Origin: an uncultured Pelagibacteraceae bacterium
GTDB lineage: Bacteria > Pseudomonadota > Alphaproteobacteria > Pelagibacterales > Pelagibacteraceae
NCBI GenBank assembly: GCA_902605645.1
Contig: CACLDE010000002.1
Span: forward strand, 1-64,000
Length of the DNA stretch: 64,000 nt
Direction of reading: 5' to 3'
The notes beneath the pieces were generated by a model that had not been told where the DNA came from, did no database searches, and saw only the letters and a list, made by a program, of their open reading frames with translations. Positions 36,268 to 49,210 of this stretch are shown piece by piece. Within the stretch, counting starts at the first letter, position 1, and every line of letters starts with the position of its first letter. A program made the position numbers and the translations under genes.

Positions 36268-37035
36268 TTAAAATACGTCCTTTAAATCTCGTAATTTCGA
36301 AAAAACTTCCTCATCCGAAGAATCCTTGAGATTTAAAGCCAGTTTAATATCATCATCGTCATATCTTAAAAAAATATTAGTTTTTAATTCTTCACCTATA
36401 GTTGTTGGTATAGTTGGAAGATCATTTTTTATTTTTGAATTAATTTCAATAGATTTTTTTTTAAGCATTGAATTATTTGGATCATACTTTAAACAAAAAT
36501 TTAAATTTGATTTTGTATATTCATGTCCGCAGTATACTTTTGTTTCTGGAGGTAAAATTTTAAGTTTGTTTAATGAGTTGAACATATCTGTATGTGTACC
36601 CTCAAATACTCTACCACATCCTAAAGAAAATAGAGTATCGCCAGTGAATACAATTTTTTCTCTCTCAAAGTAAAAAGCTATATGCCCTATTGTATGACCC
36701 GGAATAAATATTGTTTTAAATGTTAGATTTCCAATTTTTTGTCTCTGGCTATTTTTTAACAAAATATCAATTCCAGGGATACGATCTTTATCATCTTCAA
36801 ATCCTATAATTTTGGAATTGTATTTTTTTTTGAGCGCAATATTGCCATCAACATGGTCTGCATGATGATGAGTATTTAGTATGAAATCCAATTTATTATA
36901 TTTTTTAATTACTTCATCGCATGGAATGAATACAGAAGGATCAACTATTGAAACTGTGTTAGTTTCTTCTTCAAATATCAAATAACTAAAATTATCACTT
37001 AAACACTTGATTATCTCTATTTTCATTTTATCCAA
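36268..37035 (-). CDS. gloB: hydroxyacylglutathione hydrolase (glyoxalase II)
   Basis: Metallo-beta-lactamase motif THHHADHVDG, GHTIGHIAFY, GDTLFSLGCGRVFEG, YCGHEYT. Confidence 0.93.
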   Translation of the reverse strand: MDKMKIEIIKCLSDNFSYLIFEEETNTVSIVDPSVFIPCDEVIKKYNKLDFILNTHHHADHVDGNIALKKKYNSKIIGFEDDKDRIPGIDILLKNSQRQKIGNLTFKTIFIPGHTIGHIAFYFEREKIVFTGDTLFSLGCGRVFEGTHTDMFNSLNKLKILPPETKVYCGHEYTKSNLNFCLKYDPNNSMLKKKSIEINSKIKNDLPTIPTTIGEELKTNIFLRYDDDDIKLALNLKDSSDEEVFSKLRDLKDVF

Positions 37036-37636
37036 TTAAAAATATTCCTAATTTTGAAAAAAGATTTTTAATTTCTAAATTACTCTTTTTGATCAAGGAA
37101 GTTTGATCTTCATTTACTCCAACGACCTTTTTAATGTTTATATTTTTTTTATCACAAAAATTAAAAAGATCCTTAATTGTACACATGTGTAAATTTGGGG
37201 TATTATACCAAGTATTTGGTAAAGTTTTAGTTACTGGCATTTCTCCAAAAAATAAAAGTTTTGCTCTTACTTTCCAGTATCCAAAATTTGGAATAGAAAT
37301 AATTACTGATCTGCCGACTCTTAAAAGATCCTTTAATACTTTTTCTGGATTATAAAATGCTTGAAGGGTTTGACTCAAAATCACATAATCAAATGATTGG
37401 TTAGGAAACTGATGGAGCTCTGTTTCAGCATTGCCTTGAATGACAGGCAATCCTTTATGAATACATTGTTGAACATTTTTTTGATCAAGCTCCAATCCTC
37501 GAACTTCAATATTTTTTTTCTCACGAAGTAAATCCATCAAAGAACCATCTCCACAACCAACATCTAACACTCTTGTATTGTTAGGTAATAAATCTGCAAT
37601 TACTTTAAATTCTTTTTTCATTTTTAAATTTTTCAT
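37028..37636 (-). CDS. metW: methionine biosynthesis protein MetW (SAM-methyltransferase fold)
   Basis: RVLDVGCGDGSLMDLL, next to metX. Internal Met at 37621 is an alternative start. Confidence 0.93.
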   Translation of the reverse strand: MKNLKMKKEFKVIADLLPNNTRVLDVGCGDGSLMDLLREKKNIEVRGLELDQKNVQQCIHKGLPVIQGNAETELHQFPNQSFDYVILSQTLQAFYNPEKVLKDLLRVGRSVIISIPNFGYWKVRAKLLFFGEMPVTKTLPNTWYNTPNLHMCTIKDLFNFCDKKNINIKKVVGVNEDQTSLIKKSNLEIKNLFSKLGIFLIG

Positions 37637-38744
37637 ACATTGAGTCTACAAAACTTTTAAGAGTTCTTAAAAAATCTGGCACCTCCAGTAAGAAAGAATC
37701 ATGTCCTTTATCTGTGATTATTTCTGAATAAGAAACATCTGCTCCTGAAGCATTTAAAGCTATAACTATGTCTTTGTTTTCCTTTGTTGTATAAAGCCAA
37801 TCAGAAGAAAATGAAATAATTAAAAATTTAGTTTTCTGTCCCTTAAAAGCATCAACTAGACCTCCTTTAAATTGTTTTGAAAGATCAAAATAATCCATTG
37901 CTCTTGTAATATATAAAACAGAATTTGCATCGAATCTTTCTACAAATGCATAACCTTGGTGTCTTAAGTAACTTTCAACCTGGAAGTCTGCGTTAAAACT
38001 AAATTCGTAATCTGCTTTTTCTTGTAATTTTCTACCAAATTTTTCTTGCATACCTTTTTCGGATAAATAACTTATATGCCCAACCATTCTTGCAACTGCT
38101 AATCCATTTTTAGGCTGAACATTTTTAAGAAAATATTTTCCTTTATCCCATACTGGATCAGCCATAATAGCTTGACGTGCTAATTCATTTAAAGCAATAT
38201 TTTGTGCACTGTGACTAGAACTGCAAGCAATAGGAATTGCTGAAAAAGTTTTATCAGGAAAAGTCGAACAGAATTGTAAAAGCTGCATACCTCCCATTGA
38301 TCCTCCAGTCGCACATAAAAGTTTTTTTATTCCAAGATGTTCAAGTAATGATTCTTGGGCTCTCACCATATCTCTAATTGTTATTACTGGAAAATCCAAT
38401 CCGTAAGGTTGTTTAGTTTCTGGATTGATGTCTCTTGGTCCCAAAGATCCCATACAACCACCTATTACATTTGCACAAATTACAAAATATTTATTTGTAT
38501 CAATAGCCTTTCCTGGACCGACAGCAGTAACCCACCATCCATCTTTGTTTGTAACAGGGTTAGTTTCAGATATAAATTGATCACCTGTAAGCGCATGGAA
38601 AACTAAAATTGCATTGTCTTTATCTTTGTTCAATTTTCCGTAAGTTTCATAGGCTAGGGGAAAATTGTTAATTGTTTTTCCACAATCTAATTTAAGTGGT
38701 TTTGAAACTTTAATTTTTTTTATATCTTCAAGTTTTCTGTTCAT
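37605..38744 (-). CDS. metX: homoserine O-acetyltransferase
   Basis: Alpha/beta hydrolase; FPLAYETYGKL, NVIGGCMGSLGPRDINPET, ATGGSMGGMQLLQF. Confidence 0.95.
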   Translation of the reverse strand: MNRKLEDIKKIKVSKPLKLDCGKTINNFPLAYETYGKLNKDKDNAILVFHALTGDQFISETNPVTNKDGWWVTAVGPGKAIDTNKYFVICANVIGGCMGSLGPRDINPETKQPYGLDFPVITIRDMVRAQESLLEHLGIKKLLCATGGSMGGMQLLQFCSTFPDKTFSAIPIACSSSHSAQNIALNELARQAIMADPVWDKGKYFLKNVQPKNGLAVARMVGHISYLSEKGMQEKFGRKLQEKADYEFSFNADFQVESYLRHQGYAFVERFDANSVLYITRAMDYFDLSKQFKGGLVDAFKGQKTKFLIISFSSDWLYTTKENKDIVIALNASGADVSYSEIITDKGHDSFLLEVPDFLRTLKSFVDSMYEKFKNEKRI

Positions 38745-38745
38745 C

Positions 38746-38773
38746 CAAAAAAAAAGCCCAGCTAAACTGGGCT
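38746..38773 (-). terminator. terminator-like hairpin plus 9-nt U-tract between SAM-II aptamer and metX start
   Basis: Minus strand AGCCCAG-TTTAG-CTGGGCT followed by TTTTTTTTT directly before GG-ATG. Confidence 0.7.
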
Positions 38774-38831
38774 ATCTCCTGTTTAGCTACATTTATTAAG
38801 CGCCTGCAATTTGGTTAAATCGGCGCCCCTG
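38774..38831 (-). promoter_or_regulatory. SAM-II riboswitch aptamer upstream of metX
   Basis: Minus strand GGGGCGCCGATTTAACCAAATTGCAGGCGCTTAATAAATGTAGCTAAACAGGAG matches the SAM-II core (GATTTAACC...TTGCA...P1 closure...ATAAATGTAGCTAAA..AGG) and sits before a methionine gene. Confidence 0.93.
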
Positions 38832-38922: not shown

Positions 38923-39999
38923 ATGAATTTACCGAAGCCAAAAAAAATTAATGCAGAAAAGTATGTTGCTGGACTAAGCTTATTTAAACAGAAAGCAGCA
39001 AAAATTAAACTATCGGCTAATGAGTCTGCATTGGGCCCTAGTCCAAGAGCAATAAAAGAATTTAACAAAGTAGCAAAAAATTTAAAAAGATATCCTGACT
39101 CAGATGGTATTTTTCTGAGAAATGTATTAGCTAAAAAATTTCGACTTGATCCTAGAAGAATTATACTTGGATCAGGATCAGACCAAATATTTGAATTAAT
39201 ATGTAAATCATTTCTTAACAAAAATGATGAGGTAATTGTTCCTGAGTTTAGTTTCATAATTTATAGAATTTATAGCAAAATTTATGGTGCAAAGATTAAA
39301 TATGCTAAAGAAGAAAACTTTAAAATTTCCATTAAAAATATTCTTTCTAAAGTTACTAAAAAAACAAAAATTGTTTTTTTGGCTAACCCTAACAATCCAA
39401 CTGGAACAATTATTAGTAAAAAAGAATTATTAAAATTAAGAAAAAAGTTAAGAAGTAATATATTGTTAGTTGTTGACGATGCTTACTTCGAATATGTAAA
39501 AAATAAAAATTATTTACCAGGTATGAAGTTATTCTCTAATTCTAAAAATGTTATAGTAACAAGAACATTTTCAAAAATTTATGGTCTAGCTGGATTAAGA
39601 GTTGGATGGGGATATGGCCCTAAAAATTTGATATACGCTTTAAATCAAGTTAAGCCGCCTTTCAATATTAATAGAGCCGCTTTATTTGCTGCTGTTGAGT
39701 CAATTAGAGATATCAGGTGGTTAAATAAAGAAATAAAACATGTAAATAGATGGGCTAAAATTTTTTACAATAATTTTAAAAATTTAGGAATAGAAACTAA
39801 TTCAAGCTATGGAAATTTTTTACTAGTAAACTTTAATAAGATAAGAGGTAATTCAAAAAAAATATTTTTTAAACTAGCTAAAAGTGGAATACTGGTAAGA
39901 AAAATGGATGTGTATAAGATTAAAAATTCCTTAAGAATAACAATTGGGAACAACTATGAAAATAAAAAATTTATTCATACTATAAGAAAGATAATCTAA
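38923..39999 (+). CDS. hisC: histidinol-phosphate aminotransferase family protein
   Basis: PLP aminotransferase: KLSANESALGPSPRAIKEF, LGSGSDQIFELI, VVDDAYFEY, RTFSKIYGLAGLRVGWG; next to tyrA-like gene. Confidence 0.85.
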   Translation: MNLPKPKKINAEKYVAGLSLFKQKAAKIKLSANESALGPSPRAIKEFNKVAKNLKRYPDSDGIFLRNVLAKKFRLDPRRIILGSGSDQIFELICKSFLNKNDEVIVPEFSFIIYRIYSKIYGAKIKYAKEENFKISIKNILSKVTKKTKIVFLANPNNPTGTIISKKELLKLRKKLRSNILLVVDDAYFEYVKNKNYLPGMKLFSNSKNVIVTRTFSKIYGLAGLRVGWGYGPKNLIYALNQVKPPFNINRAALFAAVESIRDIRWLNKEIKHVNRWAKIFYNNFKNLGIETNSSYGNFLLVNFNKIRGNSKKIFFKLAKSGILVRKMDVYKIKNSLRITIGNNYENKKFIHTIRKII

Positions 40000-49123: not shown

Positions 49124-49210
49124 GGGCGAATGGTGGAACTGGTAGACGCGCCGGACTCAAAATCCGGTGGTAGCAATACCTTGAGAGTTCGAGTCTCTCT
49201 TCGCCCACCA
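49124..49210 (+). tRNA. tRNA-Leu(CAA)
   Basis: GGGCGAA...TTCGCCC 7-bp acceptor stem, loop ACTCAAAATC with CAA anticodon, long variable arm TGGTAGCAATACCTTG, GTTCGAGTC T-arm, encoded CCA. Confidence 0.96.

Follow-up and report, generated by a model that had tools for sequence, protein, structure and literature searches.

SAM-II riboswitches that act with a terminator are already known, and most members of the class are considered transcriptional (PMC2258182, PMC6061858). The original statement that SAM-II is usually discussed as controlling the ribosome-binding site holds for the metX copy from the Sargasso Sea. This metX RNA has been termed a rare translational SAM-II riboswitch and is used in all recent studies; recent experimental and computational work on SAM-II rests on this one RNA, read as occluding the Shine-Dalgarno (SD) sequence (PMC6061858). 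Similarly, PDB entry 2QWY has been given as an example of direct occlusion (PMC10907184). Here, we analyzed a metX leader in a window of 64,000 nucleotides, i.e., the whole stretch of DNA under study, from an uncultured Pelagibacteraceae (SAR11) bacterium. The evidence described below makes it very probable that the SAM-II riboswitch in this leader controls metX (and metW) by transcription attenuation. As judged from genome context, the same reading appears to apply to the crystallised metX RNA, and the description of the best-studied SAM-II member likely needs correction. The leader, less than 100 nt long and taken from marine bacteria that are very abundant, would provide a transcriptional switch that can be tested.

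The metX leader and its SAM-II aptamer

The leader is located on the minus strand. It begins with TTGACA, 17 nt, and TATTAA; the SAM-II aptamer and AGGAGAT come next, and then the hairpin AGCCCAGTTTAGCTGGGCT, which runs into nine T and is followed by GG and ATG. The promoter-like element (38865-38837) comprises TTGACA at 38865-38860 and TATTAA at 38842-38837, and the RNA start predicted from it is at the edge of P1. It was not reported by a strict consensus scan because the −10 element is weak; the TTGACA is invariant in the 81 metX leaders that we compared (the window and 80 orthologs from Pelagibacteraceae genomes, which are related by descent). A terminator scan identified an intrinsic terminator at 38773-38747, in which the hairpin (38773-38755) has eight pairs and a loop of 3 and is followed by U9 (38755-38747). 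The SAM-II core, hairpin, T run, and GG-ATG of metX are thus present on the minus strand as originally described and with the coordinates given. The one correction is that a T had been counted double: the run has nine T in all, the first of which also closes the hairpin.

After GG (38746-38745), the metX ATG (38744-38742) lies 2 nt past the U-tract. The regulated gene metX (37605-38744, minus strand) encodes homoserine O-acetyltransferase (NCBIfam NF001209, 505 bits versus a cut-off of 331) and overlaps metW (37028-37636, minus strand; NCBIfam TIGR02081), with which it probably forms one operon. The genes downstream of the leader are metX, metW, and gloB, so that the SAM-II leader sits before the methionine/SAM genes metX and metW. 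On the opposite strand, hisC starts at 38923. Because hisC and the next gene are on this other strand, only the metX leader can use the hairpin.

An Rfam search at the gathering threshold missed the aptamer, and a relaxed search recovered it as a match to SAM_alpha (RF00521) at 38836-38762 on the minus strand, with 24.6 bits against a gathering score of 36 and aligned over the whole model. Following the published SAM-II layout, we assigned the pairs from the sequence and placed the aptamer at 38827-38778. It has a P1 stem (38827-38822/38804-38799), L1 GAUUU (38821-38817), a pseudoknot P2 consisting of P2b (UUGCA 38809-38805/UGUAG 38791-38787) and P2a (CC 38814-38813/GG 38779-38778), and L3 GCUAAA, and this core is common to the 81 orthologs. 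RF00521 has a match in 106 of the 147 genomes of the Pelagibacteraceae, and in none of the 147 does it reach the gathering score; the locus carrying the crystallised SAM-II sequence scores 34.1 bits, which is also below 36. The threshold is therefore not fair for SAR11, and standard annotation will miss SAR11 SAM-II, including the copy of the crystallised RNA. Because the window copy is nearly identical to the structurally solved RNA, it presumably binds SAM. Across the whole window, a single Rfam match exceeds its threshold: a tRNA gene (49124-49207, plus strand), whose variable arm is long.

Predicted pairing of the aptamer 3' strand with the terminator loop

As originally noted, AGCTAAAC at the 3' end of the aptamer (38788-38781) is complementary to GTTTAGCT (38767-38760) over all 8 nt. 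In the antiterminator that these strands could form, the 5' strand, AGCUAAAC, includes GCUAAA, the invariant SAM-contacting strand of SAM-II (GCTAAA is invariant in the 81 leaders), while the 3' strand, GUUUAGCU, is made up of the terminator loop and the beginning of the 3' arm. Two inner pairs between GG (38779-38778) and CC (38770-38769), of which the CC are two bases of the terminator 5' arm, lengthen the antiterminator past the 8 nt. Among the 34 hairpins with a T run in 298 kb of this genome (234 kb of other stretches plus the window), this one has the longest complement to L3, i.e., 8 nt; one other has 7 nt, and the rest have at most 6 nt.

The same layout and hairpin are found in all 81 close metX leaders. 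The terminator loop is TTTAG (UUUAG) in 80 of them, T9 (U9) is present in 80, and the stem is identical in 78, with one complete replacement of A-U by G-C. By comparison, in the same metX genes 54% of pairs differ at fourfold sites and 39% at third positions. (We used direct counts, as a loop diversity of 0.061 obtained from an automatic alignment is affected by the alignment itself.) Against this divergence, we conclude that the loop is held fixed, though it would be free to vary in a plain terminator.

Conservation of the complementarity, which had been proposed as a test, extends to at least six contiguous Watson-Crick pairs, between the aptamer 3' strand and the terminator loop and 3' arm, in 101 of 101 distinct metX leaders with this terminator, so that this test does not refute the original interpretation. 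The full 8-bp form, on the other hand, is restricted to the subclade of the window (9 of the 101 leaders). Of 41 distinct platforms, all retain pairs 2 to 5 between L3 and the loop; pair 6 is present in 39, pair 1 in 36, and pair 7 in 33, whereas pair 8 is clade-specific (Watson-Crick in 7, plus 4 G-U). These counts indicate that the 8 bp of the window are a local maximum of a conserved core of 6 to 7 bp. A few loops have lost one or two of the pairs, and most relatives have the GG·CC pairs or a longer version of them. Of the two helices for which covariation had been proposed as a check, the terminator stem has two compensated pairs across genera; the antiterminator displays conservation and optimality only, because its aptamer side cannot vary.

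In HTCC1062 and its genus, the SAM-II upstream of metX is not followed by this terminator, and statements on "SAR11 metX" must therefore be lineage-specific. In HTCC1062 and roughly 20 metX leaders from its genus, SAM-II is instead accompanied by a conserved AGTTTTTTTCTCACAATTC, within which CTCACAATTCA is nearly complementary to the aptamer segment TGAATTGCGAG. A consensus fold of these terminator-less metX leaders did not reveal a clear platform.

To compare the native loop with alternatives, we replaced the 5-nt loop with all 1,024 variants in the 41 distinct platforms, which represent four genera. For antiterminator stability, in RNA that ended just short of the complete terminator, the native loop had a median rank of 1 of 1,024 and was in the top 5% in 39 of the 41 platforms; in all 41, four or more of the six bases of L3 were paired to the loop side. 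For terminator stability, UUUAG ranked only 191st of 1,024. CUUAG, which is present in some leaders of other genera, ranked first for the terminator and 12th to 38th for the antiterminator, and a trade-off between the two structures is visible in these predicted stabilities.

Aptamer folding and the antiterminator had been proposed to be mutually exclusive. In stepwise folding, the antiterminator forms first and is replaced by the terminator only once the 3' arm of the latter is complete. In equilibrium folding of each transcript length, using pseudoknot-free RNA alone, the antiterminator had a probability of 0.95 to 1.00 for RNA ends at 38762-38758, and the terminator had a probability of 0.97 from RNA end 38754 on. 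The predicted local energies are −10.3 kcal/mol for the antiterminator (folding of the segment) and −12.4 kcal/mol for the terminator, which is the predicted end state of the window leader. The leader thus has the features of attenuation, i.e., a G+C-rich hairpin and U-tract before the gene and a conserved antiterminator overlapping both aptamer and terminator.

We infer SAM binding by this copy, SAM-dependent termination, and a kinetic trap. At low SAM, the aptamer 3' strand (AGCUAAAC, then GG) would be free as the terminator loop exits RNA polymerase; it would pair with GUUUAGCU, and the GG with CC, to give an antiterminator that holds back the terminator until polymerase has moved beyond the U-tract, and metX would be transcribed. 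With SAM bound, the same strand would be held in the pseudoknot, the terminator would form over U9, and transcription would end a few nucleotides short of the metX AUG. The decision would be kinetic: as the loop exits polymerase earlier than the 3' arm does, its partner would depend on the state of L3, either free or captured by SAM. If the crystallised metX RNA also acts through a terminator, then the key quantity is the speed with which SAM captures L3, relative to capture by the terminator loop, during transcription and not the hiding of a ribosome site.

The same loop in tandem and metF leaders

SAM-II/SAM-V tandem leaders and single metF SAM-II leaders have an unrelated stem (ACCACCG...CGGTGGT). 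Their terminator loops are mostly CUUUAG and pair over 8 to 9 bp with GCUAAAGCG, and 22 of 23 distinct tandem and metF cases are within the best 0.6% of 1,000 random loops. The base following GCUAAA is C, A, or U opposite G in metX and G opposite C in the tandems. The genome of the window also has a second SAM-II, which precedes a metY-like gene (C4:34400-34950, minus strand) and forms a tandem with a SAM-V (RF01826, 73.8 bits); the terminator loop again carries CGCTTTAG. We consider it likely that SAR11 SAM-II riboswitches share a compact expression platform, with the aptamer strand that contacts the ligand doubling as the antiterminator strand by pairing to the terminator loop. An antiterminator made from the SAM-contacting GCUAAA and recurring with another stem looks new in the literature covered; the L3-loop pairing of bhmT may have been drawn earlier.

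We identified the bhmT RNA of HTCC1062 from its genome position (PMC2704228) together with the three antisense oligos printed in PMC11508383, whose positions of 83, 98, and 128 agree with the numbering of that paper. In this RNA, CUAAAGCG at 45-52 is predicted to pair with CGCUUUAG at 66-73 with a probability of 0.98 to 1.00 at every transcript length between 78 and 185 nt. The nucleotides described as contacting SAM, U46, A47, and A49 (PMC11508383), are in or beside this predicted helix. According to that paper, the SAM-II domain scarcely responds to SAM in the full-length tandem RNA and does respond if isolated or with downstream oligos, which was called puzzling (PMC11508383). An antiterminator between L3 and the linker would account for the lost SAM response of SAM-II in the full-length tandem RNA. 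If true, this would explain a result that the authors find puzzling, and it is an explanation that they do not propose in the part of the paper available to us.

In another SAR11 genus, eight leaders have SAM-II before a metW-like gene, with a weak A+T-rich hairpin (CACTTTAAAGTG) and T6 to T7; the complement to L3 is only about 5 nt long.

Alternative explanations and comparison with known systems

We considered four other explanations for the metX leader. First, SAM could act at both levels. It would promote termination, and in transcripts that read through, the purine run would serve as a distant ribosome site that the folded hairpin brings nearer to the AUG. This would add to attenuation and has the precedent of S. 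meliloti metA, in which the order aptamer, SD, AUG1, terminator, AUG2 is the same and use of AUG2 is proven (PMC9373788); moreover, the window has no other SD ahead of the metX AUG. However, in other genera the purine run is still farther from the AUG and is cut down to GG or GC, and we regard this additional control as possible but unlikely.

Second, the terminator could be constitutive and SAM independent, limiting metX expression or yielding a small RNA. The S. meliloti metA terminator downstream of SAM-II is not predicted to be SAM controlled and gives sRNAs (PMC9373788), and folding of the window leader is predicted to end in the terminator. A constitutive terminator nevertheless leaves unexplained why the loop is best for capturing L3 and not best for the terminator, and why it recurs with a different stem; we consider this explanation improbable.

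Third, control could be at translation only, with SAM hiding an SD-like purine run (AGGAG here, AAGGGG in the crystallised RNA) in P2a and the hairpin being incidental. The purine run beside the aptamer is conserved, and this is how metX SAM-II is described (PMC6061858, PMC10907184). An SD in P2 would have to be at a working distance of about 5 to 9 nt from the start codon, but in all 81 leaders the run ends 29 to 33 nt upstream of the metX AUG and is separated from it by the hairpin. The nearer AUG1 abuts the run without a spacer and was rejected as the metX start: 19 of the 81 leaders lack it, that of the window among them, and one has it out of frame. The run also has another role, since its GG pairs with the terminator CC. 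Finally, true SD-occluding SAR11 copies (GCUAAAGGAGGCAAAUG) differ from the metX leader. Together, these observations make control at translation only very improbable. Fourth, the hairpin could mark where a different transcript ends, or U9 could be a ribosome-binding enhancer of metX. This was rejected as the least probable explanation: although the hairpin is in a divergent intergenic region and U9 adjoins the AUG, the neighbors hisC and the next gene are on the plus strand, on which side a T run is absent, and U8 to U10 stays with the hairpin in other genera and in the tandems, where the AUG is far off.

Eight SAM-II-like leaders of the form GCTAAAGGAGGCAAATG have a well-placed SD and precede two families of small unannotated ORFs (55 to 61 and 57 to 63 aa). 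These are real SD-occluding SAR11 forms, and the contrast between such forms before small ORFs and the metX leader is therefore plain.

Attenuation of metX by SAM-II can be compared with several described systems. Alphaproteobacterial SAM-II riboswitches with a terminator (S. meliloti metZ and many others; PMC1273637, PMC2258182, PMC9373788) resemble the window in having the promoter just before P1 and the terminator between P2 and the gene, and in being OFF switches of methionine genes. By inspection of 30 non-SAR11 loci, the terminator arms there tend to match the long 3' strand of P2 (AGGUCGG), and the GCUAAA-loop arrangement is used in none of the 30, which points to a different antiterminator; in the window, P2a is limited to 2 bp and the antiterminator strand is L3 itself. 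S. meliloti metA has the aptamer, SD, AUG1, terminator, and AUG2 in the order seen in relatives of the window, most of which have AUG1, while the window is without AUG1. Its authors could not predict a SAM-II-driven antiterminator (PMC9373788), and one is evident here. In the "Candidatus Pelagibacter" SAM-II/SAM-V tandem (bhmT; PMC9481103, PMC11508383), SAM-II is followed by a terminator with the complement of L3 in its loop, as in metX. Unlike in metX, SAM-V follows, the stem is unrelated, and the antiterminator has 8 to 9 bp or more. In the HTCC1062 tandem, the antiterminator is predicted to be more stable than the terminator (local energies of −14.9 and −8.4, respectively), while the reverse is the case for metX of the window.

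A further comparison is with the crystallised metX RNA. We take PDB 2QWY to be the SAM-II sequence printed in PMC8494917. Exact copies of this 52-nt sequence (the CRYSTALLISED RNA) are present in front of metX in 2 of the 169 genomes of this genus, and both are followed by GATGCCCAGTTTAGCTGGGC-T9-GG-ATG. That the crystallised "metX SAM-II" stands directly before this terminator, and that some 30 nt separate its presumed SD from the AUG, looks new in the literature covered. The Sargasso Sea metX SAM-II is thus like the window in being an ortholog with the same terminator in two genomes of the genus, and unlike the reading given here in being described as translational (PMC6061858, PMC10907184); its genome context argues for transcription control over SD occlusion.
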